Source: a virus
Length of the DNA stretch: 43,358 bases
Direction: 5' to 3' (one strand)
IMG/VR virus record: IMGVR_UViG_3300026512_000218
Span: 1 to 43,358 of that record
In this document: in pieces, positions 262-31,191 of the stretch
Numbering within the stretch: the first letter of the stretch is position 1
Layout: every line of letters begins with the position of its first letter
Notes under the pieces: generated by a model
What the model was told of the DNA's origin: nothing
The model's database searches: none
Seen by the model: the letters and a program-made list of their open reading frames with translations, nothing else
Translations under genes and position numbers: made by a program

Positions 262-2064
262 TTAATCCATCAAAAAATTAATACATTTATTTACAATTTT
301 TTCTTCATCATTTATATATTCATTATCCGAAATTCTTAAAGTTTTAAAACCTTTCGTTAACAAATAATTATCTCTATTTTTATCTTTTTCTATTGAATTT
401 TTATGCCAGTACTCCCCATCAAATTCTATTATTTTATTTTCGCATTTAAAATCGCAGAGAATATAATTTTGTTTAAAATATTCATTTTTTTCAATTATAA
501 ATTTTGCTTCATTATTTAAAGTGGCGAATTCACACAAATTTTGTTTATCCTTTGGTAAGTTATTATAAATTTTTCAAAATAATTTTTGTGATATTTTACT
601 ATATTTTTTACGATTGCTAAGCATGTTATTCAATATTTCTTCATATTTCTTTTTGCCTTCAGTTTCACCATATTTTTTAATATAACCTGCTAATGAGTGA
701 TTAACTGAAAATTTTTTACAATTTTCTTTATATTTAATTTTTCCCTCAATTTCTCCATATTTATTTTGAAAATAAGATAAAGAAAAATGGTCTTGCGTTA
801 AACAATGTTCATCATATTTCTTTGTTCCTTCAATTTCCCCGTAACGAGAAATATAACCTTGCAATGTCTGCCCGAATGAAACGTTTTTTAACATTTCTTC
901 ATATTTCTTTTTGCCTTCAGTTTCTCCATATTTTTTAATATAACCTGCTAAAGATTTTCCATAAGCAATATTTTTACACTTTGCTTCATATTTTTTTGTT
1001 CCTTCGATTTCTCCATATTTTTTAATAAAACCTTGTAAAGAATTAGTAAACACGGTATTTTTACATAATTCATCATATTTCTTTTTGCCTTCAGTCTCTC
1101 CATATTTTAAAATATAACTTTGCAATGAATGAGTAAATGATAATTTTTTACGTAATTCATCATATTTCTTTTTACCTTCAACTTTTCCATATTTTTTAAT
1201 ATAACCTTGCAATGTTTGTCTAAACGAATTTTGTTTACGTAATTCATCGTACTTCTTTTTACCTTCAACTTTTCCATATTTTTTAATATAACCTCGTAAT
1301 GAATTGCCAAATATTACTTTATCACGATATTCTTTATACTTTTTTGGTCCTTCAATTTCTCCATATTTTAAAATATAACCTTGTAATGTTTTACTAACTG
1401 AAATGTTTTTACACTTTGCTTCATATTTCTTTTTTCCTTCAATTTCTCCATATTTAGCAATATAACCTTGTAACGATTTACCAAATGAAATACGTTTACA
1501 ATATTCTTTATACTTTTTTGTTCCTTCAACTTCTCCATATTTTAAAATATAACCTTGCAATGAGTTACTAAAAGATTTTCGTTTACATTTTTCTTCATAT
1601 TTCTTTTTACCTTCAACTTTACCATATTGTTTAATATAATCATCTAATTTATATGCATTTATTTTTTTATCAATCTTTTTTTTATATTTCTTTTTGCCTT
1701 CAACTTCTCCATATTTTTTAATATAACCTGCTAATGAGTTATTAAATAATACTTTATCTTGATAATTTTTATAAATTATTGTCCCATATTTTTTTCCGTA
1801 TCTTACAATAAACATATTTAATGAACTACTATCATTTTTAAATTTTTGAGAAACAAGTATTCGTCTATTTCAATTTCCTTTAGTATTAAATTTTAATAAA
1901 TTTTTAATCATTGCTTTTTTAGAATAAAACCAATGCTTTGAATACATTTTAAGTAATTTATTAATTTGAATAATACTATGTTCAGTCAATGAATCAATAT
2001 CAACTTCATTTCAAGGTTTGCAAGATAATAATTGATTCAAGTCTTTAAAATATTTTTGTGCCAT
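262..2064 (-). CDS. Vsr-like homing endonuclease with 13 tandem KYGExEGKKKY repeats
   Basis: This is a 600-residue protein once three in-frame TGA codons are read as Trp (residues 18, 65 and 497). Without that it falls into separate ORFs. Residues about 84-490 are 13 recognisable tandem copies of a ~31-residue unit (SLQGYIxKYGExEGKKKYxE plus a K/C-rich tail), a repeat seen in phage homing endonucleases and presumably DNA-binding. The C-terminal ~90 residues have the Vsr/restriction-fold pattern: a hydrophobic strand, then EFDGEYWH at about 548-554, then RDNYLLTKGFKTLRI. It sits between the two halves of the fractured helicase, 2 nt after the N-half stop, exactly where Vsr-like free-standing endonucleases occur in published fractured genes. 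The expected role is to cut intein-free helicase alleles and spread the arrangement. Activity is inferred. Confidence 0.8.
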
Positions 2065-2066
2065 AA

Positions 2067-4016
2067 TTATTTCATTACCCCATTCTGTAAAACTTTATCA
2101 TCAGAGTCATTATCAGTATTTAAATTTTTATTACATTCATTACATTTGTTACCTTCATTACCTTCATTATTTTCTATAAATAATTTACTTCCAACTTTAA
2201 GACCCGTATTAATACACTTAAATTTTCCATCCTCTACTGGAAATTTATGTTTTGCTGAAACAATTATTTCTTTTCCAGATTTTAATTTTATCTTATAAGC
2301 CGGTTGTTTAGTTATTGGAAACACATTTTTTATTTTCTTAAAACCTTTATGTGTTTTAATTTTATCTCCAACTTTAACAGTCCCAATTTTAATAATACCT
2401 TTATTTTCTATTTCAACATTAGAATCAATTGCAATACATCGATGAGACTGAGATGCTGTAACAATAGGAACTCCTAAAATATTTCCCATACCACGTAATC
2501 TTTCATAAATATTACCACTCTCTAAATATGTCGAATCAGAATTTGCATATTTTTCAGATATTAATAAATCCGCATAATCAACAATAATTATATCTGGTTC
2601 AAAACCAATACCTTTCAATTGTTTCACATGTGCTAATAATGCTTGCACCCCAACAAATTTTGTCGGAAATTCTTTAACAATTATTTCATTATGATATTTT
2701 GATGTGATTGATTTAATTTTTGCTTTAACTGCTTCTTGTTTAAAATGTAAATCATTTGAAGGAATTTGCATCATAACAGAGTCGTATCTTAAATTTGTAT
2801 ATTGTGCTGATAGCTCCAATGTATAATGCAAAACATTATGTCCATTCTTAAATGCTTCATATCCCAATTTTGATAGTACCCAACTATTATGTGAAACAAC
2901 ACCGTTAGAATAATAACAATGAACTTCTTCAACTGAAATGTCATATAATATTTCTTCAAAATCCGAAGATTGTTTATCAACTATTGTACTAAATCCAGTA
3001 TCTGATTTAATTTTATCACCAATTTTTAAATTATGAACAAATTCATATTTACCATTTTCTTTCAATAATCTATGTTTGCCACTTGTCTTTAATGATGTTC
3101 CATTTGAAAAATATGTTCTTACTGTTTTTTGTTTTTCTGTTCTAAATAATGTTACTATATTTTTATATCCAGCAGGAGTATATACTTCAATAGTAAAAGA
3201 TGGATGAAATGTTGATAATTCACTTGTTCCAATATTTAATAATTTAAATAATTCATCCATTCTAATTCGTCTTATTTTTGTTACAATATCAGTATATGAA
3301 TATGCTGACATATTAATATTCCAAATATCTTCCCATTGTTTCAAAGTTGTATTATATAATTGATTATATTTGATAGTAATTATTGTACTTCCACCAACAC
3401 ATTTTCCAGCTCCACTTGGTGCGACTACAACTGCTAATTCTCCTTTACCAAAACCTCCATTTGTTATTTCATCAATTATAGGAATATTTGTTGCAACAAC
3501 TTTTCGTTCTGTATCCGAATATCTATTTTCGACTGTTGATGAAAACTTTTCACCTATTTTATTTTGTTCACCAATCATCATAATATTTGAAATTTCATCA
3601 AGAACACTATTATATTCAAATGTTTTTGTTTGTATTGATTGTGCTGATTGAATTAATACTGTTTCTAATGAACGTTGTTTTATAAAATTAATTATTTCAT
3701 CTTTAACATATCCCAAATCTGAATCTGTTCAGTGTTGCATTATTTCAGTTATTATTCTATTTAAATCTTCTACACTAACATTATCTTCACTTTGTTTAAT
3801 TTTATTAAATTCTGAACTTAACACGTTTACAGAAGGTGATGAATTATATTTTTCAATATATGAATAAATAATTTTATATAAAGGTTGTAATCTTTCTGAA
3901 AAATGTTCAATTTTTAAATTAAGAATATCTAAATAATTAATATTATTTTGTAATATATTAACTATTAATTTTATTTGAAAATCATTACCATAATCAGTTA
4001 ATTTATTTAAAACCAT
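2067..4016 (-). CDS. Replicative DNA helicase (gp41/DnaB type), N fragment with a mini-intein and a split-intein N half
   Basis: The product is 649 residues, with TGA read as Trp at residue 96 joining two ORFs. Residues 1-100 are the N-terminal DnaB-like domain. The RecA-fold ATPase begins near 170, with Walker A APSGAGK at 199-205 interrupted by a continuous mini-intein (206-377), then SWVLSK. Walker B is IIIVDYADLL at about 476-485, and GVPIVTASQSHR ends the extein at 526. A second intein starts at Cys527 and stops at 649 without a C-terminal splicing block, so it is the N half of a split intein; the partner is at the left window edge. The start overlaps the exonuclease stop (TAATG), implying coupled translation. 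The protein should act as the hexameric replication-fork helicase only after one cis and one trans splicing event. Confidence 0.93.
2070..2438 (-). other. Split intein N half (helicase junction)
   Basis: It covers residues 527-649. It starts with Cys after TASQSHR, has the VKVGDKIKTHKG strand and block B-like SAKHKFPVEDG, and ends in a low-complexity N/E/K/D tail with no block F or G. The stretch VFPITKQPAYKIKLKSGKE closely matches what I remember of gp41-8 and gp41-1 N-inteins. It should associate with the C half at 30-170. Confidence 0.88.
2886..3401 (-). other. Continuous mini-intein in helicase Walker A
   Basis: It covers residues 206-377 (172 residues) of the helicase. It starts with Cys immediately after APSGAGK, contains block B-like TSGKHRLL and block F/G LYDISVEEVHCYYSNGVVSHN, and ends His-Asn before Ser. 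There is no LAGLIDADG or HNH domain. Splicing restores GAGKS. Confidence 0.9.
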
Positions 4017-5116
4017 TAGTTAACTCCTACCCCTAAATTGTTTAAAATTTTATTTAATCTTGCAATATTTTTTACATCAACGGGTAAATTCATTACATTT
4101 AATAACTTAACAATATTTAAATCTTTAACATTTTCGAATAAAGGATTTGCTCTAACAAAATCCAATAAATATGTTCTTTCTCTAACTGGAATATTATTTG
4201 ATACAATATCTTTAGATAATGACATTAATTTAAAATTTCGTTCCAACTTATTTTCATTTTCTGTTATTAATTTTTTAAGACGTTTATTAACAACTTTGTC
4301 ATTTATATCCAATAAAAATTTATCAAAATCATTACTATAATCTTCGTTAATCATATTTAATTGACTCGATAAATGTTTTTTAACCATTCCTTTTCCTATA
4401 CCTTTTAACCCATCAACATTGTCTGATTTATCTCCTGTTATAATTTTTTCAAATATATAATTTGAAGGTAATACTTCATGTTCTGTAATAAAATTTTCTT
4501 TAGTAACATAATCTTTTTTAATTGGATTATAAATAATAACGTTATCTGATAACAATTGTTGAAAATCTTTATCTGCTGATAATATAATATTTCTAACCGA
4601 TTTATTATTATATTTCGGTAACGCCACAGTTGCTAAATAACTAATTACATCATCTGATTCAAAACCATTCGCAATATATGTTTTTATTGGTAATTCCTGT
4701 TGCATAATTTCAATAAGTTTTTTTATAGATTCTCTAAAACTTTTTTTAGAAGTTATTCCACCACCTCTATTCATTTTATAATCTTTAAATATTTCTCTAC
4801 GATTTTTTGTTGTATCTTTACCATCAAATATAATTAGTATATTATTTGCATTGCTTCTATCAATTTCATTAAATAATGTTCTAAAAAATAAACTAATTAT
4901 ATTCTTAAAATCACCATTTCCATTTTTCATATTTGTTGCAATCGCAAATGCTCTAATAAATAAAAATGACCCATCAATTATTAATGTACTACTATTAGTT
5001 AAATCGATTCACTGATTATTTGTTATTTTTGTATTTTCAACAATTTCTTTATTAATCATTTTTGATAAATTTCCTAAACTAAATTTTTTAACACCATTAC
5101 TGTTTTTACTATTCAT
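4016..5116 (-). CDS. RNase H / 5'-3' flap exonuclease (T4 Rnh/FEN family)
   Basis: The product is 366 residues with Trp36 encoded by TGA; the ATG at 5116 follows AGGAGATATT. The N-terminal LIIDGS (D48) is the first metal-binding Asp. FDGKD near 97-101, ESDDV, SADKDFQQL and GDKSDNVDGLKGIG (helix-3-turn-helix) follow in the family order. The enzyme removes RNA primers and flaps from lagging-strand DNA. The last base of its stop overlaps the helicase ATG. T4 Rnh and phage FEN proteins are about 305 residues, so an N-terminal ~40-residue extension is unusual; the in-frame TGA lies inside it. Confidence 0.9.
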
Positions 5117-5140
5117 AATATCTCCTAATCTTGTCTGTTT

Positions 5141-5153
5141 ATATTATTATAAT
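5141..5153 (-). promoter_or_regulatory. Putative promoter motif (TTATAATAATAT type)
   Basis: On the minus strand this reads ATTATAATAATAT, about 25 nt upstream of the exonuclease start and just after a terminator. The same motif recurs in most gene-free gaps. The assignment is by recurrence only, in a very AT-rich background. Confidence 0.35.
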
Positions 5154-5182
5154 ATTTTTTTTAAGTATTTAAAATAATAATA

Positions 5183-5208
5183 AAAAATCACCATTGCTGA
5201 TGATTTTT
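5183..5208 (-). terminator. Rho-independent terminator after the HD-domain gene
   Basis: On the minus strand a 10-bp stem AAAAATCATC/GGTGATTTTT with a 6-nt loop is followed by T-rich sequence. It lies 38 nt past the stop of the gene at 5246-5923. Confidence 0.7.
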
Positions 5209-5245
5209 AAGTTAATGAATTGGGAATTGAGTTGAATAATTTAAT

Positions 5246-5923
5246 TTATTCCTCATCCTTATAATTATAAATTTTATTTTCAATTATTGCGGACATAAAA
5301 TCTGCTTGATGAATAACCATATGAATATTTGTTTTTAAATTAAGCATATCCGAATAGTCTGGAATGTATTGTTTATATGATTCACTAAATGTTCCATCTG
5401 CTAATTTAATTCCGATTAACTCATTTCTTGACGGAATTAATCCATATTGCAATAACATCATCATAGTAGCATCTTCACTTGGTAACATATTATTACCCAA
5501 TTTAGAACGTTCATAATATTGAGAATAATGTTCTTGTTTCCATTTATTATTATTTTTTAAATAAAGCATTCCACCTTTATCTTTACTAAATCCAATTTTA
5601 TATAAATCATGAAATAATGCTGAAAATATTAATTCTTCTTTAGTATATAAATTTTTACCAAAACCACTTTCAGACCATAATTTATCAATTTTTAATGCGT
5701 TTTTCATAACATTTAAAGTATGATATAACCAACCACCTTCAAATGCACTATGAAATTTACTAAAACCGCTTGCTGGTGATAAAACAACATTTTCTATATT
5801 ATCAGATAATAATTTATAAATTTTTTCTTTTCTATTTTCATCTGGTATATACTCATCAATAAGTTCATGAATTTCTTTTAAATCATTTTCTATTTCTAAA
5901 TTTGTTCGTTTTTTATTTTGCAT
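5246..5923 (-). CDS. HD-domain phosphohydrolase-like protein
   Basis: The product is 225 residues; the ATG follows AAAGGAGAATATA. The HD superfamily signature is visible in order: FHSAFEGGWLYHTLNV (first His), ALFHDLYKIG (the HD pair, near residue 106), and HQADFMSA (late His/Asp near 210). These residues would bind one or two metals and hydrolyse a phosphoester, often a nucleotide. The substrate cannot be read from sequence. It ends with its own terminator, so it is the last gene of a transcript. Its nearest neighbours are the exonuclease downstream and an Hsp20-like gene upstream. Confidence 0.75.
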   Translation of the reverse strand: MQNKKRTNLEIENDLKEIHELIDEYIPDENRKEKIYKLLSDNIENVVLSPASGFSKFHSAFEGGWLYHTLNVMKNALKIDKLWSESGFGKNLYTKEELIFSALFHDLYKIGFSKDKGGMLYLKNNNKWKQEHYSQYYERSKLGNNMLPSEDATMMMLLQYGLIPSRNELIGIKLADGTFSESYKQYIPDYSDMLNLKTNIHMVIHQADFMSAIIENKIYNYKDEE

Positions 5924-5965
5924 TATATTCTCCTTTACTTTGTGTAAATATACATTATATTATTG

Positions 5966-6418
5966 CTATTTCTTAATAAAGTTATAACTATAATTCATTG
6001 ATAATGACTTTTTATCTGATTTTAAAATATTGATATTTAAAATACCATCTTTAATTGTACTTATTGTATTTGAAACATTATAGTTTTTATTAATTCCCCA
6101 CATATAAATAAACATATTGTCATTAACAGTTAAACCATTATAAATATATGCTCTATTTGTGTTTTTAGATTTATTTTTTTGTTTATTATATTTATCAATA
6201 TTATCTACATCATTAATACGAATTTCAATTGAATTTGTTTCTTCATAAATGTTAATAACAATATTATCTGGATTAATATTACAAATTGGAATATTAAAAT
6301 TTAAACTTTTATTTTCGTCTAAAAAAATATCGTATAATGCTGAACTTGTATTTGTTGATTTAATGATGTCACTTAACTCACTTAATTTATTCTGTTCACT
6401 TTGTTTGTTAAATTTCAT
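5966..6418 (-). CDS. Hsp20/alpha-crystallin-like small protein
   Basis: The product is 150 residues behind AAGGAGTTAAA. Residues about 35-75 (FNIPICNINPDNIVINIYEE followed by IEIRI) and about 115-135 (ISTIKDGILNINI) resemble the beta-sandwich and terminal strand of the small heat-shock domain, which binds unfolded proteins. T4-like phages commonly carry an Hsp20-family gene. The match is by strand pattern rather than catalytic motif, so confidence is moderate. It lies 18 nt downstream of the tmRNA-like gene, and another protein of the same fold lies on the other side of that RNA. Confidence 0.5.
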   Translation of the reverse strand: MKFNKQSEQNKLSELSDIIKSTNTSSALYDIFLDENKSLNFNIPICNINPDNIVINIYEETNSIEIRINDVDNIDKYNKQKNKSKNTNRAYIYNGLTVNDNMFIYMWGINKNYNVSNTISTIKDGILNINILKSDKKSLSMNYSYNFIKK

Positions 6419-6436: not shown

Positions 6437-6569
6437 TGGTGGAGCAAACGGGATTTGAACCCGTGTCCCTCATATCATTAGTTAAGTCTTCCAGTAGTCG
6501 TTTTAAATGCATTTATCTACCTTATAGTGAAGTTAACATTTAGATACAAAGTCGAAACCTTTTTGCCCC
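6437..6569 (-). ncRNA. ssrA: Short tmRNA-like RNA (133 nt)
   Basis: On the minus strand the RNA begins GGGGCAAAAAGGTTTCGAC, matching the tmRNA 5' consensus (GGGG, then GGNTTCGAC). It ends with a T-arm (ACGGG, loop TTCAAAT, CCCGT) and TTGCTCCACCA. The 7-base acceptor GGGGCAA pairs with TTGCTCC with one G-U, and CCA is encoded. Inside, GTATC/GATAT, GTTAA/TTAAC and CTTC/GAAG can stack as one long P2-like helix. Usual tmRNAs are about 300-400 nt with pseudoknots and a tag frame. Here the only candidate tag is a 10-codon frame from GCA that ends at TAA inside the helix. It may be a minimal, tag-less or decayed tmRNA. No D-arm or anticodon arm supports a plain tRNA. Confidence 0.65.
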
Positions 6570-6578
6570 ATAAATAAA

Positions 6579-6596
6579 GGGGTAGAATTCTACCCC
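6579..6596 (-). terminator. Hairpin between the Hsp20-like gene and the tmRNA-like RNA
   Basis: A perfect 7-bp stem GGGGTAG/CTACCCC with loop AATT is followed by TTTATTTAT on the minus strand. It ends only 9 nt before the tmRNA 5' end, so it could be a terminator or a processing hairpin; there is no room for a separate promoter. Confidence 0.65.
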
Positions 6597-6607
6597 AAAT
6601 TAATTAA

Positions 6608-7219
6608 CTAATCTACTTCAATTTTTATAATATTATCGTCCGTTTTTTTATCTTTATTAAGTGGGACAATAATTCGCAACAGAGATTTTGATTTAAGTAA
6701 TTTTGATGTAACTTTTGTTAAATCATATTTTTCATCAACAAAAAAACTTGCATTAAAATAACTCTGAACTGCAATTGATTTGTACAAATAATCTTTAGTA
6801 TCGTATTTATCTTTACTATGATTACTAAACATAATGTTTAAATGACTTTCTTGTAAATCTGCTGTAATGTTAATATCTTCTTGAGTAATATCATTTGCTT
6901 GAATTTCAAAAATTAAATTCCCATCATTATCCTTGTACACATCATAGAATTCTTTTTCCATACGTCGATTTCCTCCATTTTGTTTTTTTTCATTTAATTG
7001 TTTATCAACATTTTTATTTTGTTGACTGAGTTTTAACATTTCTTGTTTTTTTTCTTCTTCAACAATTGCTTGTTCAACCATTTCATTAAATTCTTCAAAC
7101 CATGTATCAAATAATGTTTTTCTAACGTGTTTAACAGGTTTAACAGGTTTAATTGGGGTATTATCTACTCTACCACCGTTTGCATTTCCGAATAATTCAT
7201 CAAACATATTAATAATCAT
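6608..7219 (-). CDS. Hsp20-like protein with charged N-terminal linker
   Basis: The product is 203 residues; SD GGAGGAAAGAAA precedes the first ATG, and a second in-frame ATG lies four codons in. Residues 1-90 are a linker rich in Lys, Glu and Gln (PIKPVKPVKHVRK, then EEEKKQEMLKLSQQ) likely to be disordered or helical. Residues 95-200 have the small heat-shock pattern: FEIQANDITQEDINITADLQ, a later SFFVDEKYDLTKVTSKLLKS and a final LLRIIVPL strand. A chaperone-like role is inferred from fold only. It is the gene immediately upstream of the tmRNA-like RNA, separated from it by a hairpin. Confidence 0.5.
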   Translation of the reverse strand: MIINMFDELFGNANGGRVDNTPIKPVKPVKHVRKTLFDTWFEEFNEMVEQAIVEEEKKQEMLKLSQQNKNVDKQLNEKKQNGGNRRMEKEFYDVYKDNDGNLIFEIQANDITQEDINITADLQESHLNIMFSNHSKDKYDTKDYLYKSIAVQSYFNASFFVDEKYDLTKVTSKLLKSKSLLRIIVPLNKDKKTDDNIIKIEVD

Positions 7220-7724: not shown

Positions 7725-9794
7725 ATGAAATCAATAATTGTATATATACAACAGTTACTATTATCTGAATTAGATTATAAAATTTTAATCTACGATGATG
7801 ATACTGATAACATAAATTTATACAAAAATATTATTCAATTTAGTGAAAAAGATAAACATTTATTAAATGTTTATAATAATAATATTATCTATTGTTCTGA
7901 TTACACAAAAATTGATGATATACTTAAAAATGAAGACATTAAAATTGTCATATTAGATATTATAATTAAAAATTATACATTTGATAATTTAGAATCAGAA
8001 AAAAAATATAAATATGGTGGAATAGAACTGTATAATAAGTTAGTTTCAAAATATAAAAATATTGAAATTGATTTTATATCAGCACTAAACAATACATATA
8101 TAGATTTTAATTTATTGCATTCCACAACCAATACTCCTATATTTTTTCAACGAACAGAATTAAGTATTAATGAAATGATTATTTATATTAAAAATAAAAT
8201 AAATACATTTATAAATTCATTTTTATTACTGAAAATGTTGAAATATTTAGACACATTTATTAATATTAATTCACCAGTTCTTACAATTTTTGATGAAACC
8301 GGAAAAATTATTATTTCAAATGAGGTATTTTTAAGTAAATTTCCAAATATTACAAATATAAAAAAAATATTAACACATTGTTTAATTGACAATAAAAAAG
8401 ATAATAAAAAAGATAATGAAAAAGATAATGAAAATATTAATATAGATAATATATTCGATGATATTATTAACCACCAACATATTTCAATTAATAATTTTGG
8501 AATAGTTGCTAAAATAAATACACATAATTATATAACATTAATATTAAACGAAGATACTAATAATTTTCATAATAAATATATTGAATTAAAAAATAAGTAT
8601 GATAATATTTTAACATCAATTCCCGATTTAATTTGAACAAATGATTTAGAAGGAAAACCAACATATTCAAATCAATTAGATTATATTACAAATATAATTA
8701 AATCAAATATTCCACAGTTAAATGATGTTACTGAAATGGATAAATTTGTTAAAAGATATAATAAGCAAATAAATAAAACTATCTATAACGAAAAAGATAA
8801 CTCAACTTATAATGTTATAAAATCACCATTATTAGATTATTCGGGAAATTTAATTGGAACGACCGGTGTTGCAAGAAATATATCAATTGAAAAAGTTACA
8901 GAAACAATATTATCATCAGTATTTAATACATTTTTAGATGTTGCAATTATTCATTGTAATAGTAATTTTAAATTAATATATTTTAATACAAATGTTAAAA
9001 ATTTATCTATATTAAATAATAAAAATACTTCAATACTAAATAAAAATACAAATAAAAATGAAATTAATAATGATATTTCATTAGTAAATATGTTAAATAA
9101 AGATGTGTATAATACTATTATTACAAATATTTCAAATTCTAATAAAAATTCATATGAATTTAATTATTATGATACAGATAATAATATTACTTATAATATT
9201 TTAATTATTAAATCATATACAAATAATCCAAAACAATTATTCGGATATACTATATTCTTTATAAATAAAAATAATGAAATAGAAGATAAACAAAATTTTA
9301 CAGCAGTTAAACAAATTTTACATCAACAAATAGAAAATTCTAATGATATGGTTATAATCTTTAATAAAGATAGAAAAGTATTTTTATCTAATAAAAACGC
9401 TAAACGAATTTTTGAACGAATATTAAATTATTCATTAGTTGACGGTGTTCAAGATTATGCAATTTTAGAAAATTTAAATTTATTAATTGAATATTGTGTT
9501 GTCGACAATACAAAATGTGATTCCATAAATAACGAATTAATTACTGAAATTGTTAAATCAAAAGAGCCATTTGAAATAAGTATCAAATGACGAAATAACC
9601 AACATAAAAATTCAGACGTAACAGAACCTCCATTATTATTATCATATTATAAAATATTTAGTGAAATATATCATATTTGCGATACAGTTGAATATGTTAA
9701 ACTCGATATTAAAGATATTACAGATTTTAAACATAATGAATTTTTATTAATGAAAGAAATTAATAAACAAAAATTAATGTTACGTAACTTATAA
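7725..9794 (+). CDS. Receiver-like domain plus multiple PAS domains, no output domain
   Basis: The product is 689 residues with TGA read as Trp at 304 and 622. Residues 18-110 look like a response-regulator receiver: acidic DDD at 24-26 and KIVILDII with candidate phospho-acceptor D78. At least three PAS units follow. One near 180-215 has LTIFDETGKIIISNEVFL. The clearest, near 297-390, has SIPDLIWTNDLEGKPTYSN and ends in the PAC-like SPLLDYSGNLIGTTGVARNI. Another, near 530-570, has DMVIIFNKDRKVFLSNKNA. The chain ends after a final PAC-like segment and a short coil, where a histidine kinase would normally begin; no kinase, GGDEF or DNA-binding domain is present. It may sense a ligand and signal through protein contact. 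The linker at 223-240 is a DNKKDNEK repeat. Confidence 0.75.
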
Positions 9795-11175: not shown

Positions 11176-12675
11176 TTAATGAAAATCTTCTTCGTTATCT
11201 TCAGGTGTACCATCAATTATTGATTGACTAATATATTCTTCACCCGGATTCTTCGTTAATGTTGAATCTTGAACATAACAATTAATAATATATGCATGTT
11301 CTATTTCAGAATCAATTATTTCAGAATCATCTTTGATTGTTACAGCATAATATATTTCGGATGTGCCATAAATTTCAGAATTATCTACTACACATTCATT
11401 ATAAATTTGAGCATCACCATAAATTTCAGAATAACCAGTAATTTCTACATTATCATAAATTTTAGCATTTCCATAAATTTTAGACGTATCATTAATACTG
11501 GACTCAGTAATTTCTGCATTATCATAAATTTTAACATTATTATTAATAGAAGAATCTAAAATTTTAACATTACCATAAACTTTAGCATTATCGGAAATTT
11601 CAGAATCTCCAGACACTTTTGCACTTTCATAAATTTGTGCTTTACCGAATATTTGTGCTTTACCGGAAATTTCAGCATTATCAAATATTTTTGATTGGTC
11701 ATAAACTTGTGCATTGTCAAATACTGTAGCGTTTTTAAATACTTCAACATCATCAAATACTTTCGCATTACCATAAACTCGCGCATCACCAAACACTGCA
11801 ACATTATTAAATGCTTTAGCGTAATCATACACTTCTGCATTACCAAATAACTCTGCATTATCGTATACACTTGAATTACCATAAATTTTAACATTACCAT
11901 ACACTTTTGCATTGTCATAAACTTGTGCATCACCATATACTTTTGCACTTTCATAAATTTTTACATTACCGTAAACATCTGCATTATCATAAACTTCTGC
12001 ACTATCATATACCATTGCTTTTCCTGATAATTGACAATTACCATACACACGTCCTTTATCAAATACTATAGCATCATCAAAAATTAATGATTTATCATAT
12101 TGATTAAAATTATATTCACTTTCTGCATATCCACCATTATTTGAACTTACTTTAGAATTATATTTAATTTTAAAAACAATATGCCCATTAATTTTTTTAA
12201 AATTATTATATGACAAATAATATTTTAAATTTCCATTATCTAAATAATTGTTAATTAATTTTTTAACTGGGGTTAATGGATTTTTTTCAAAATCATATAA
12301 TTCAATTTGTTTAGCAAATTTTTTAATATCAGTAAATCTTTTTGGAATTTTTCTGAACATAGTTGAATTATTGCCTTCCGTAATACCAATAATTGAATTT
12401 CTAATAATATACAAATTCATTTCTAAATTAAGCAATTTTACAATCAAACCACCATTAACTTTATCAATAATTATTTTAAAAGGTTCATTTTTAAATGCTT
12501 GTTTAAGCGTTGCTTCAATTATTTTAATTGAAAGAGGTTTACCCCAAATATTTTTAGATAAATCAATTGACTCAGAAATGTTATGTTTTTCATTATCAAC
12601 TTTATTCAATTGCATTCCTACACTTTCATTAATCATTCTTTTTAATTCATTTTTTGCAATTTTCATTTTTTTCAT
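11176..12675 (-). CDS. Hexapeptide-repeat (left-handed beta-helix) protein, long form
   Basis: The product is 499 residues behind GAAGGAAAA. Residues 1-20 are a basic helix (KNELKRMINESV) of a type common at the start of myophage proteins. About 30-170 form a mixed domain. Residues about 185-450 are an uninterrupted run of hexapeptide-like units (VYGNA, VYDNA, IYESA, with A or V inward), predicting a left-handed beta-helix like those of acyltransferases or polymer-forming scaffold proteins. No acyltransferase active-site His is evident. The neighbour at 12725 is a shorter paralogue with the same N-terminus. Function is unknown; structural or surface display is possible. Confidence 0.75.
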   Translation of the reverse strand: MKKMKIAKNELKRMINESVGMQLNKVDNEKHNISESIDLSKNIWGKPLSIKIIEATLKQAFKNEPFKIIIDKVNGGLIVKLLNLEMNLYIIRNSIIGITEGNNSTMFRKIPKRFTDIKKFAKQIELYDFEKNPLTPVKKLINNYLDNGNLKYYLSYNNFKKINGHIVFKIKYNSKVSSNNGGYAESEYNFNQYDKSLIFDDAIVFDKGRVYGNCQLSGKAMVYDSAEVYDNADVYGNVKIYESAKVYGDAQVYDNAKVYGNVKIYGNSSVYDNAELFGNAEVYDYAKAFNNVAVFGDARVYGNAKVFDDVEVFKNATVFDNAQVYDQSKIFDNAEISGKAQIFGKAQIYESAKVSGDSEISDNAKVYGNVKILDSSINNNVKIYDNAEITESSINDTSKIYGNAKIYDNVEITGYSEIYGDAQIYNECVVDNSEIYGTSEIYYAVTIKDDSEIIDSEIEHAYIINCYVQDSTLTKNPGEEYISQSIIDGTPEDNEEDFH

Positions 12676-12724: not shown

Positions 12725-13783
12725 TTAAATATATTCACCACTATTTTTTTCAATATTGCCAACTATATCTAAATTAATATACTTAATAGAATCATCTTTT
12801 AACACTGAATTAATAATATTACAATCTTTTATTCGAATAGCAATTGAAATTTTTGAATCCTGAATGTTAGAAGCGCCATTAATAATTGAATTTTTAATTA
12901 AAGAATTCTTAACATATGTAGTATCACATATTTCCGAATATCCTTGAATTTCACTTTTACCACATACAATAGAGTTATCATAAATTTCTGCATCTCAATA
13001 AATTTCAACACTACCATAAACTTTTGCATTACCATATATTTTTGCACTACCGAAAATTTCAGCATTTTCGTAAACTTGTGCATTACCATAAATTTCAGCA
13101 TTATCACAAATGGTTGCATTACCAAACACTTGAGCATTTTCGTAAACTCGTGCATCATGATAAACAATTGCATTACCATAAACTACAGATTTACCAGTTT
13201 GACTTAAATTACTTTCACTTTCAATATATCCACCATCAACTGAAATACCTGACCTATACATAATTTTAAAAACAGTACGACCATCATAATTTTTATAATC
13301 TGTATAAGATAAATAATATTTTAATTTATGTTGTTTTAAAAAATTATTAATTAATTTACTTACACTTATTACTCTATTCTTTGTGGGATTATAATTATCA
13401 ATACCATTTAATAGTTGCGGTATACTTTTATAATTTTTCCAAAACATCGAGAATTTGGTTGTATTTTTAAGATTATCATTAATTCCGATAATTGTATTTC
13501 CAATAACATATAAATTAATTTCTGAATCTAATAAACTTACAATTAAACCTCCATTAAGTTTATCATATGATATATTAATTTGTTCATTTTTAAACATACC
13601 ACTAAACATTGATTTAACATCATTACGAGATGACATAATTTCAGTTGAAGCAGACATAATATCAATCGATTCAGAAATGTTACGTTTTTTCTTTTTATAC
13701 TCGTTAGTATTATTAACTTTACTTAATTGTCTCTTTACACTTTCATTAATCATTCTCTTTAATTCATTTTTTGTAATTTTCAT
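12725..13783 (-). CDS. Hexapeptide-repeat (left-handed beta-helix) protein, short form
   Basis: The product is 352 residues with Trp263 encoded by TGA (within VEIYWDAEIYDNS); without that the ORF ends mid-helix. The SD AGGAGGTAATTTTA is strong. It shares with its downstream neighbour the N-terminal KNELKRMINESV helix, the middle domain (YLSYxxxK, then VFKI) and the VYGNA/IYDNA beta-helix (about 185-340), so the pair is a tandem duplication followed by change in repeat number. The C-terminus (VLKDDSIKYINLDIVGN) is unlike the paralogue's acidic tail. Role unknown. Confidence 0.75.
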
Positions 13784-17754: not shown

Positions 17755-18241
17755 TTTTCTCAATTTCCTTTATTAAATTATAAATTATATTCGCAATTTG
17801 TTTTGGTGATAATACACTTGAATCTATCACAAATTTATATCGATAATTACTGCGATTAAACTCTTCTAAAAATTTAATCTTAATATCATCAATATCTTTA
17901 ATATCAATATTTTTATTATCAAATCTATCAATAATAACATTAGTATCCGCTGTTATTAAAATTAATACAACATTTGGTAGTTTTAACTCTAATTGCCTAA
18001 TATAATTCGGATAATAATTTCTGTATAATTGTCCATACACACATTCAGATAAAAATAGTCTATCCATAATATGATTATTTGTATGTTGCAAATTAATAGT
18101 TTTTTGTTCATATAATTGTTTAGTTTCTAATTTTGATTTACCAGCAGCGTTATGTTCTACTGTGAAATCATCTAATTTTAATAATTCAGTTATAACTGTG
18201 CTTTTACCAACACAATCACACCCTTCAATTAATATATTCAT
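17747..18241 (-). CDS. P-loop nucleotide kinase (thymidylate-kinase-like)
   Basis: The product is 164 residues behind GGAGGAAAT. MNILIEGCDCVGKST is a Walker A at the extreme N-terminus, and HIMDRLFLSECVYGQLY is the DR-like acceptor motif. The chain is short for a dTMP kinase (about 205-210 residues), so it may be a minimal phage version or a deoxynucleoside kinase. Its 3' end overlaps thyX, consistent with a shared thymidylate role. A paralogue is at 14479-15219. Confidence 0.7.
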   Translation of the reverse strand: MNILIEGCDCVGKSTVITELLKLDDFTVEHNAAGKSKLETKQLYEQKTINLQHTNNHIMDRLFLSECVYGQLYRNYYPNYIRQLELKLPNVVLILITADTNVIIDRFDNKNIDIKDIDDIKIKFLEEFNRSNYRYKFVIDSSVLSPKQIANIIYNLIKEIEKND

Positions 18242-22250: not shown

Positions 22251-23198
22251 TTAAGTTAAATCAACAATTATTTCATCGGACTTCGTTAAATCTTTAACAG
22301 ACTTCCAATATCCATATCCTTCTTTTTCTGTTGATTTTACTAAAAATTTATGTTCATTAGTCCCAACAAAAGAAGTATTGTCATTAAATTTAATATTATT
22401 AACTGCACCATAACCATTATAAAATAATCTATTAACTGTTTGAATTTCACCATTGATATTAATTACATTAAAACTATTTTTTAAATCAATCCATTGTTTT
22501 TTACCAATTTTTTCTAAATCGATATAATTAATATCATTTTCAATTAATATTTCTTTAATTGATTTAATACCATCAGTTGTTTTAATTTTAGTTTCAAAAA
22601 TCGAACACCCAGTAGGAGCAATATTTAAAATTTTACCATTTCTTAAACCATATTTATTAACCAAATCAATTGTTTCTTTTGAACATTTATTTAAGTAATA
22701 CGGATTTAATTCGTAATCATTATATACAGGTGCTTTGCCTAATTTTTTTGCCCGTAATGCAGAATATTTATATGATTTATCTAATATAAATGTCATTAAT
22801 TTTTCAATAAATTTTAATGATTCTTCAGAACCATATTTTATTTTTTTCAAAATTAATAAATCAGCATACCCCATTAAACCAAGTCCCAAATCTCTATAAT
22901 ATTTTTGATTTTTTTCAATTCCTTTATCAAAATATTGTTCAGTTTCAATTGATTCATCTAAATAATCAATACCATTTTTAATTATATTATCAAGCATATC
23001 CCAATTAATATTATCTGGATATTTTTCAATATCTGATGTATATAATAATTTTAAATTAATTGATGCGAGATTACAACTTGAACCACTACCATCTTTTCCA
23101 ATTGGTAATATTTGTTCTCCACAATCTACATTTAAAATTGAATTCTGATAATAATTTTTATTAATTATGAATGGGTTACTTATTTTTTTAATTTTCAT
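22251..23198 (-). CDS. Ribonucleotide reductase fragment 2 (active-site core) with intein-like ends
   Basis: The product is 315 residues behind AAGGAGATAGAAA. Residues 1-25 are a short intein-C-like leader ending ILNVD. The extein starts at Cys26, CGEQILPIGKDGSGSSCNLA, where the first Cys is the family's thiyl-radical catalytic cysteine (NPCGE in intact NrdJ). It runs through GLGLMGYADLL to LNIAPTG at 197. Cys198 opens a split-intein N half (CSIFETKI, then DNTSFVGTNEHKFLV, ending EIIVDLT). A TTATAATA-type promoter motif lies in the 91-base gap upstream, so fragments 2-4 may have their own transcript. Confidence 0.92.
   Translation of the reverse strand: MKIKKISNPFIINKNYYQNSILNVDCGEQILPIGKDGSGSSCNLASINLKLLYTSDIEKYPDNINWDMLDNIIKNGIDYLDESIETEQYFDKGIEKNQKYYRDLGLGLMGYADLLILKKIKYGSEESLKFIEKLMTFILDKSYKYSALRAKKLGKAPVYNDYELNPYYLNKCSKETIDLVNKYGLRNGKILNIAPTGCSIFETKIKTTDGIKSIKEILIENDINYIDLEKIGKKQWIDLKNSFNVININGEIQTVNRLFYNGYGAVNNIKFNDNTSFVGTNEHKFLVKSTEKEGYGYWKSVKDLTKSDEIIVDLT
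22254..22607 (-). other. Split intein N half (reductase junction 2)
   Basis: It covers residues 198-315 of fragment 2. It starts with Cys after APTG; block B-like SFVGTNEHKFLV; ends after KDLTKSDEIIVDLT with no C-terminal splicing block. Confidence 0.88.
23124..23198 (-). other. Short, atypical split intein C half (reductase junction 1)
   Basis: It covers residues 1-25 of fragment 2. KNYYQNSILNVD aligns with block G (HNFFANGILVHN) but ends Val-Asp rather than His-Asn before Cys. It is shorter than the usual ~35-45 residues, and block F is hard to see. Confidence 0.55.
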
Positions 23199-29322: not shown

Positions 29323-31191
29323 TTACTTTCCTTCAGTTATTCCTTTATAAAAATTCGGTAGTTTAACTTCACCATATTTACTATTTAAATATTTTGACAT
29401 TTTTGTCCATTTATATTGACCTTGAAAATAATTTTCAGCAACTCTTATTAATTTTCTACCATAAAATGTTGTAGCATCTGCAACTCTAAAATTATTTAAT
29501 CTGAAAAATTTAGATGCCATAGCACCGTAACTACTATTTAAAATAATCTTAAATACATATTGACGTTTATCTAATACTTTATAATTAACATTATCTTTAT
29601 CATATTTTTTCATTTCACGTTTAAACTGTTTTCTATCTTTATATAATTCAAATAATGAATCTGGTAATATACCTATTTTTGTTTTATGACTCATAAATAT
29701 ATAACGTTTTTCAACTAATTCATCAGAATATCCTGTATCACTAAATTTAATATTATTTTTTATTAATTCTGGTAATATATCTCTATCAATATCTAAACCA
29801 TTATTTTCAGCAATAGTATGAGAAATTATAAATGTTTCAGGACTTAGATTCATAATCATTTCAGTTGTCGGATATAAACTTGCATAATCAAATATTCCCA
29901 AATTTCGTTGTACTCCTGCGACAACAGGTTCTTTCACATAAGCACCCATATATTTTACTTGTTCTTTTAATGTATCTGCAGGAAATATTTTTTTAGTATT
30001 ATTATAATATCTTGAAATTAAAAAATGGTCAATTAATACAGTTTGTTGAAATTTTTGACTTAATTTTGTAATATTTGTAATATCTTGAATCATATAAAAT
30101 AAATCAAACATTTGCAATTTAGCATCAAGTTTTTTCAATATTTCAACATCTCTATAACCATATTTAATAAATCCTTCAAAATCATCTTTCCAATCTTTCC
30201 AAGAAGATGCTTTAATTTTACTCATATCGTCACCTAACAAATTAACTGCAATATCATCTAATTTATTTGTAGGCATTTTAATATTTAACATTGCAACTGC
30301 ATCCATCATATCAATGTGGTCAACTCCTTTAATAGTTGTAAAGAAATTATTTTTTCGTGAATTATATTTACACATTACCCATTTTGTAGGACTTATTGTT
30401 GCAAATGTTTCTTTTAATCCTAAATTAGATGCTCTATTAATTAAATAGGGAACATCATATCCACCAGAATACCATCCACTTATTACATCAGGAGATAACA
30501 TTTTAAATAATTTTATAAATACTTCAAATAAAATTAATTCAGATGTACATTTTATTAAATTTAAAATTTCACCATTTTCACCAGTTTGCACTTCTGATAT
30601 TACTGATTCTTTATTATTTTTAAATGATTCATGTCATGAAATAATATAATACTCATCTGATAATGATGAATATAATTGTATAGAAGTAACTGGTTGCATA
30701 GCCATTTTTGGTTTATTTGACTCTGGGTTTTTAACATCATACCATGTTTCAATATCAAATAAAACAAGATGTCTATTTTGACTCCATTCAATTGTATCAG
30801 AATGTTCATTTAAATATTTTAATTCTGGTGATATATCTAACATAAACGCATTATGCTTTATTGTATTTTGAAGTATTGTTTGTTTTTTATTCCTTGAAAT
30901 AATTCCATATTTAAATTTTAATTTATTAATTTTAAATTTTAATAATTTATCTCCAAATAATGATTCATAATTTTGTTGATTAGTATTTTCATCTATTGAA
31001 ACAAATGGTTCGATAGATTTATTTCCAATATATTCTTTTAATTCTTCTAATTTATCAATTGGATAATAAAAAAAATCTATAAATTTTTCTACAGTTATAT
31101 GTGGTTCATTATTATCATCCCACCATTTTAAAAAAATATTATATATTCCATTTCTAAAATCCGGTTCACTTCAAATTTGAGTTATTTTCAT
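29323..31191 (-). CDS. Family B DNA polymerase, N-terminal fragment (exonuclease, motifs A and B)
   Basis: The product is 622 residues after reading TGA as Trp at codons 7 and 186, which joins three ORFs. LFDIET (145-149) is exonuclease motif I, SGWYSGGYDVPYL motif II and YGYRDVEIL motif III. FDYASLYPTTE is polymerase motif A and KIILNSSYGAMAS motif B. The chain ends about 70 residues after motif B at GITEGK, before motif C. Together with the 336-residue C fragment the total is close to T4 gp43. T4-related Aeromonas phages are also known to have a split gene 43. It is the replicative polymerase with proofreading activity. Confidence 0.93.

Follow-up and report, generated by a model that had tools for sequence, protein, structure and literature searches.

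In mycobacteriophage DS6A, the tmRNA is little more than a tRNA-like domain (TLD) (PMC4131195). According to two later papers on the TLD-only form of Mao et al. (2009), a DS6A-like molecule strongly inhibits tmRNA in E. coli (PMC4131195; PMC11915505), and does so whether or not it can be charged, perhaps by titrating SmpB (PMC4131195). A 2025 census of 97,179 tmRNA sequences recorded only nine genes in standard order that lack a tag frame; of these it names DS6A, the sole phage case named, and two plastid forms; mitochondrial tmRNAs without tags persist together with SmpB (PMC11915505). By ARAGORN, tmRNAs occur in about 2% of phage genomes (PMC9004378).

The window analyzed here, a stretch of 43,358 bases of viral DNA, holds a single Rfam tmRNA match in its whole length, on the minus strand at 6437-6569 (RF00023, 58.3 bits, gathering threshold 47, E 2e-20). 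Positions 1-374 of the model align end to end over exactly this interval with large internal deletions, and 242 consensus positions are skipped where the mRNA-like domain and pseudoknots normally sit, which bears out the original prediction of a 133-nt tmRNA-like gene with its middle removed. The compact-class (class-A) model CM R1, built from 61 compact forms, also matches the RNA over its full length (49.3 bits, E 2e-9). ARAGORN called the gene neither as a tmRNA nor as a tRNA. The textbook tmRNA ends that had been read from the sequence are all present: the acceptor has 7/7 pairs with G3·U70, A73, and an encoded CCA, the T-stem has 5/5 pairs, and the D-loop GGUUUCGAC agrees with the RF00023 consensus. 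The RNA thus carries both the GG(A/U)UUCGAC D-loop and the UUCRANU T-loop with 5-bp stem that mark a TLD. The 5′ acceptor and D-arm come before the T-arm and CCA, with no permuted gene order seen, and neither an anticodon arm nor a D-stem was found by ARAGORN or Rfam. In the MFE fold a P2 helix occupies the place of the anticodon arm, with covariation from compact relatives and none for its own cap. The fold agrees with the long P2-like helix and small inner domain that had been foreseen: P2 of 9 bp, a 5/4 internal loop, and an inner helix of 9 bp interrupted by a 2-nt bulge, topped by a 5-bp stem whose loop has 19 nt (-29.5 kcal/mol, z -1.9; 8 of 200 shuffles were equally stable, which is modest on its own). 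PK1-PK4 are not present in the Rfam alignment or the fold, and a capped hairpin of ~40 nt stands instead. It is nearly certain that this RNA is a tmRNA derivative that has kept the whole TLD and lost the tag-coding half. Its features and those of its surroundings are as follows.

6437-6569 (-): mini-tmRNA gene, matched by RF00023 and CM R1
6563-6569 (-): acceptor 5′ strand GGGGCAA, G3 at 6567; 7/7 pairs with 6441-6447
6551-6559 (-): D-loop motif GGUUUCGAC, from the sequence and the RF00023 consensus
6543-6551 (-): P2 outer helix, 5′ strand, 9 nt, paired to 6468-6476 (MFE fold)
6538-6542 (-): 5-nt internal loop between the outer and inner 5′ strands of P2 (MFE fold)
6529-6537 (-): P2 inner helix, 5′ strand, GUUAACUUC (MFE fold)
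6493-6521 (-): cap hairpin GGUAG-(19-nt loop)-CUACU, in place of the mRNA-like domain and pseudoknots (MFE fold)
6481-6491 (-): P2 inner helix, 3′ strand, GAAG-AC-UUAAC (MFE fold)
6477-6480 (-): 4-nt internal loop after the inner 3′ strand of P2 (MFE fold)
6468-6476 (-): P2 outer helix, 3′ strand (MFE fold)
6448-6464 (-): T-arm ACGGG-UUCAAAU-CCCGU, 5/5 pairs
6437-6447 (-): acceptor 3′ strand UUGCUCC (U70 at 6443), A73 at 6440, encoded CCA (sequence and fold)
6478-6510 (-): sole GCA-to-stop frame, AFKTTTGRLN, crossing the cap and the P2 3′ strand (sequence and shuffle test)
6579-6596 (-): terminator-like hairpin GGGGTAGAATTCTACCCC and T-rich tail that stops 9 nt short of the RNA 5′ end (1 site against 0.1 expected)
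6608-7219 (-): upstream ORF, 203 aa, no PHROG or Pfam match
5966-6418 (-): downstream ORF, 150 aa, starting 18 nt past the CCA, AAGGAG ribosome site, no PHROG or Pfam match
2067-4016, 29323-31191, and 7725-9794: examples of ORFs extended through TGA, fused when TGA is sense

The intergenic gap holding the RNA is 189 nt long with 34% GC, as compared with 7-23% for the other gaps longer than 110 nt; the RNA itself has 38% GC against 21% for the whole record. Replication and nucleotide-metabolism genes surround it, and for this reason a role during lysis, as had been proposed, is unsupported. Among 42 selected ORFs ending in TAA or TAG, about 15 between 262 and 41714 continue past in-frame TGA, 20 such codons in all, and their boundaries are tight. 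In this phage UGA apparently encodes an amino acid, either Trp (code 4) or Gly (code 25); the codon contexts favor Gly in a repeat protein and are ambiguous in the methylase and polymerase. The nearest relatives of its helicase and RtcB are distant, with huge phages among them. No close relatives of the phage were found when the RNA region was run by blastn against phages or when related loci were sought with the DnaB and helicase ORFs. Other features of the record include a gp41-1-type split intein match at residues 530-615 of the DnaB-like ORF (2067-4016), which near residue 377 also has an internal stretch resembling an intein C-terminus, and a weak intein match in one ORF of a split ribonucleotide reductase (22251-23198). 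Two adjacent paralogues, 11176-12675 and 12725-13783, consist mostly of IYGNAKVYGDA-like repeats (phrog_7964/5070, beta-helix-like).

The ten-codon frame from GCA to TAA without the usual hydrophobic end, AFKTTTGRLN, was found as foreseen and is the only GCA frame in the RNA. When the middle is dinucleotide-shuffled, 29% of shuffles hold a frame of 6-35 codons from GCN to a stop, and 5.6% hold one that starts with GCA. A degron-type (ALAA) tag end was not found in the window RNA and the frame runs through helices, making it unconvincing as a tag; judged from the sequence, we do not consider it a real tag, and no convincing tag seems to be left. In three relatives (L002, L020, L315), our reading of the sequences finds conserved blocks with no common reading frame. 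Two further phage contigs, L523 and L524, encode a 223-nt tmRNA (814-1036, minus strand, in L523) whose frame ends in ...NNNNQNAFALAA (...NAFALAA) followed by a stop. Their RNAs are identical to each other, were missed by ARAGORN, and fall below the Rfam reporting cut-off. They share their first 19 nt exactly with the window RNA, and a search for these 19 nt found only the tagged L523/L524. A short phage tmRNA can therefore hold an obvious tag, as these two do, whereas the window RNA is without one. Two families of short forms, L007/L023/L035 and L037/L041, have a common GCAAATACGG frame whose stop is the ninth codon in both; the frames, ANTAGLTE and ANTVGMFK, could possibly be short tags.

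Short forms comparable to the window RNA (hereafter mini-tmRNAs or minis) were sought in IMG/VR by pattern scans for the D-loop motif followed by a T-loop at variable distance, filtered for a complementary acceptor and T-stem; all resulting counts are lower bounds. Among the matches listed in the first pass, 159/169 had G-U at 3-70. When complete acceptor pairing was required together with G-U at 3-70, A73, and a gap of less than 100 from CGAC to the T-stem, at least 158 loci with at least 115 distinct sequences were retained, the window included. The gap has a sharp peak at 34-35 nt and a thin tail to 93 nt. The peak is the compact build (TLD, 7-bp P2, and tiny cap; RNAs mostly of 75-82 nt), to which the majority of minis belong. 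The window RNA, with a gap of 86, lies in the sparse long-cap tail together with L012, L298, L037/L041, L007/L023/L035, and L002/L020/L036/L315. The sequences place the window RNA in a broad phage class that preserves this domain and differs in the cap. Reduced forms recur in other phages; for this particular cap no relative was found at the sequence level, leaving it without covariation support.

The 12 phage loci with minis tested in one batch were above the RF00023 cut-off, as were 8 of 9 loci in a second (two from bacterial bins; the exception was L443), and 43 of 46 whole phage records with minis gave an RF00023 match over cut-off. ARAGORN called none of the minis submitted, and the published 2% figure, which rests on this program, misses the class. 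In a literature search that excluded subscription papers and most preprints, no report of a tagless phage class at such a scale was found. One phage contig at first doubted, L048, does hold a compact form (4138-4220, RF00023 71.3 bits); a Pistol ribozyme (65.5 bits) lies on the same contig at 5471-5534 (minus strand). Candidates set aside were L003 from the first scan, a likely chance hairpin, and L016, a full-length tmRNA; a scan of gaps of 107-137 returned mostly tRNA pairs or a mini with a following tRNA. In Microbacterium phage Katzastrophic (L432), 2440-2528 is an unannotated mini-tmRNA-like sequence with G3·U70 and an altered D-loop, GGUUCGCCGAC (R1 29.5 bits).

Some compact forms have recognizable surroundings. 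In Streptomyces phage LuckySocke, an unannotated compact mini lies in a tRNA cluster (17977-18057), and other compact forms are also located in phage tRNA clusters. In Pontimonas phage phiPsal1, one at 5569-5650, likewise unannotated, is flanked by the prohead protease and major capsid genes. At ~11 IMG/VR loci the compact form is near one recurrent upstream and one recurrent downstream protein, which, by analogy with phiPsal1, may be the prohead protease and major capsid protein.

In the acceptor, the pair G3·U70 specifies alanine identity. Among the matches listed, 97 of 98 distinct compact forms have G-U at 3-70 and all 98 have A at 73, and these identities were in neither the search pattern nor the filter used for this set. 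The D- and T-loops were set in the pattern and acceptor pairing in the filter, so that the independent evidence consists of G3·U70, A73, P2, and covariation. In the 95 compact forms whose acceptor pairs throughout, all four Watson-Crick types interchange at pairs 4-6, G·U outside 3-70 is limited to 9/570 acceptor pairs, and P2 pairs 1-6 covary. CCA is encoded in 23/98. A near-invariant G3·U70 amid free covariation elsewhere indicates that AlaRS identity, and hence charging with alanine, appears to be under selection in the compact class. Maintained alanylation is the chief argument against a pseudogene or a pure sponge, neither of which would need it.

No SmpB gene was found in the 46 phage records with minis, with control genomes positive, or in the window record, which may be a fragment; host SmpB would therefore have to be used. 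The 341-kb phage contig G001 carries both a full-length tmRNA (C1:8556-8914, tag ATPYEYALAA) and a 139-nt mini (L002, 292364-292502), which argues that the mini is not merely a shrunken substitute. Full-length tmRNA and mini were also found together in three Poribacteria bins and one actinomycete bin, and such bins can mix sequences. In Poribacteria-bin contigs, a TLD-only mini lies ~125 nt from a CRISPR-like array in L521 (1501-1586; array 1711-3069) and ~3.3 kb from one in L176 (1361-1443; array 4706-6173); this was not seen in L522.

Of the three readings originally offered, a tagless decoy or interfering RNA is favored and a minimal tagging RNA disfavored, because the family has neither room for nor conservation of a tag and the alanylation signature is kept. 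We consider the chances about even that the window gene makes a tagless, alanylated, SmpB-dependent competitor of host trans-translation. Host AlaRS would charge the mini-tmRNA, host SmpB and EF-Tu would deliver it into the A site where truncated mRNA has stalled a ribosome, and the nascent chain would be transferred to it. Lacking a resume codon that could be used, it would not switch the ribosome onto a tag; host trans-translation would be blunted by competition, and phage proteins and nonstop mRNAs would escape tagging and decay. Charging is not required by the DS6A precedent, where inhibition occurred with or without it (PMC4131195). The GCA frame with its stop in the 3′ internal loop, seen in so few shuffles, counts against this competitor reading. 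The main rival, which we think unlikely, is rescue without a tag: the charged mini would take the nascent chain, the nonstop mRNA would leave, and other factors would split or hydrolyze the complex, so that ribosomes keep turning over and phage proteins are not marked for degradation, a role that has been proposed for mitochondrial tmRNA lacking a tag. Conserved G3·U70 and A73 imply charging and hence use on the ribosome, and the compact forms sit in tRNA clusters or capsid operons as if expressed during active synthesis. However, we know of no release step that works without a stop codon, and the one TLD-only case tested inhibits. The persistence of tagless mitochondrial tmRNAs with SmpB also favors this rival (PMC11915505).

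Two further readings, a short tag that works and a remnant, rank below tag-free rescue in likelihood. For a minimal working tmRNA, with AFKTTTGRLN as a short non-degradative tag and a resume codon GCA in the 19-nt loop, one can point to the UAAAU before the GCA, with U and A kept at -5/-4, to the stop placed in the 3′ internal loop, to the 5.6% of shuffles with a GCA-to-stop frame, and to the L007 and L037 families, in which our reading of the sequences also finds a GCAAATACG frame with the same stop codon position. The RNA lacks pseudoknots and a hydrophobic ALAA-type end, however, its frame would need P2 unwound, the compact class has no room for a tag, L002/L020/L315 have no conserved frame, and the tagged short phage tmRNA of L523 looks quite different; we regard this reading as quite improbable. 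A functionless relic decaying from a full-length tmRNA of phage or host origin, which would fit a cap without sequence-level relatives and a terminator-like hairpin immediately upstream, is very improbable, given that all acceptor, T-arm, and outer P2 pairs are intact, CCA is encoded, GC is raised within a 21% GC genome, and independent phages keep equally reduced forms. We give almost no credence to a misidentified or intron-bearing tRNA or an attachment-site fragment. Although tRNAs too have a T-arm and acceptor, and mobile elements often carry 3′ ssrA fragments, the best Rfam family is tmRNA and not tRNA, there is no anticodon arm and no ARAGORN tRNA call, and the window RNA is complete at both 5′ and 3′ ends where attachment-site fragments have one. 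Short forms of many lengths on independent contigs likewise speak against both an intron-bearing tRNA and an assembly error.

Overall, mini-tmRNAs probably interfere with or take over the host rescue of stalled ribosomes. At least 115 distinct phage minis with a near-invariant alanine pair and no SmpB gene suggest that phages routinely target ribosome rescue by RNA, through a class that the standard gene caller, ARAGORN, overlooks. More tentatively, and with somewhat less than even confidence, tagless minis may be a common, independently maintained system, used by phages of many groups, that places a charged alanyl-RNA on the ribosome, overriding or replacing host trans-translation without tagging, with the window RNA as a long-cap variant in a UGA-sense phage.

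As compared with known systems, the window RNA shares with the standard one-piece tmRNA (RF00023) the 5′-to-3′ order, the G3·U70 acceptor, the GGUUUCGAC D-loop, T-arm, P2, and CCA, but is one third the length and has no convincing tag frame or PK1-PK4. Mitochondrial tmRNA (RF02544) and the ~65-bp plastid forms of Mallomonadaceae also apparently lack a tag frame (PMC11915505); mitochondrial genes are mostly permuted, whereas the window gene is viral and in standard order. The L523/L524 tmRNA has the same acceptor pairing as well as the same first 19 nt, and differs in keeping its recognizable tag. The compact minis (LuckySocke, phiPsal1, L059) have the TLD, G3·U70, and A73, with P2 straight after CGAC and a GGAC-type linker before the T-arm, as in the window RNA, but measure 75-82 nt; their P2 has 7 bp, their cap about 12-17 nt, and CCA is often not encoded. 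DS6A, compared by its description, is like the window RNA phage-borne and in standard order, with the TLD kept and the tag frame absent; to this the window RNA, 133 nt in length, adds a long P2 in two parts and a capped hairpin.
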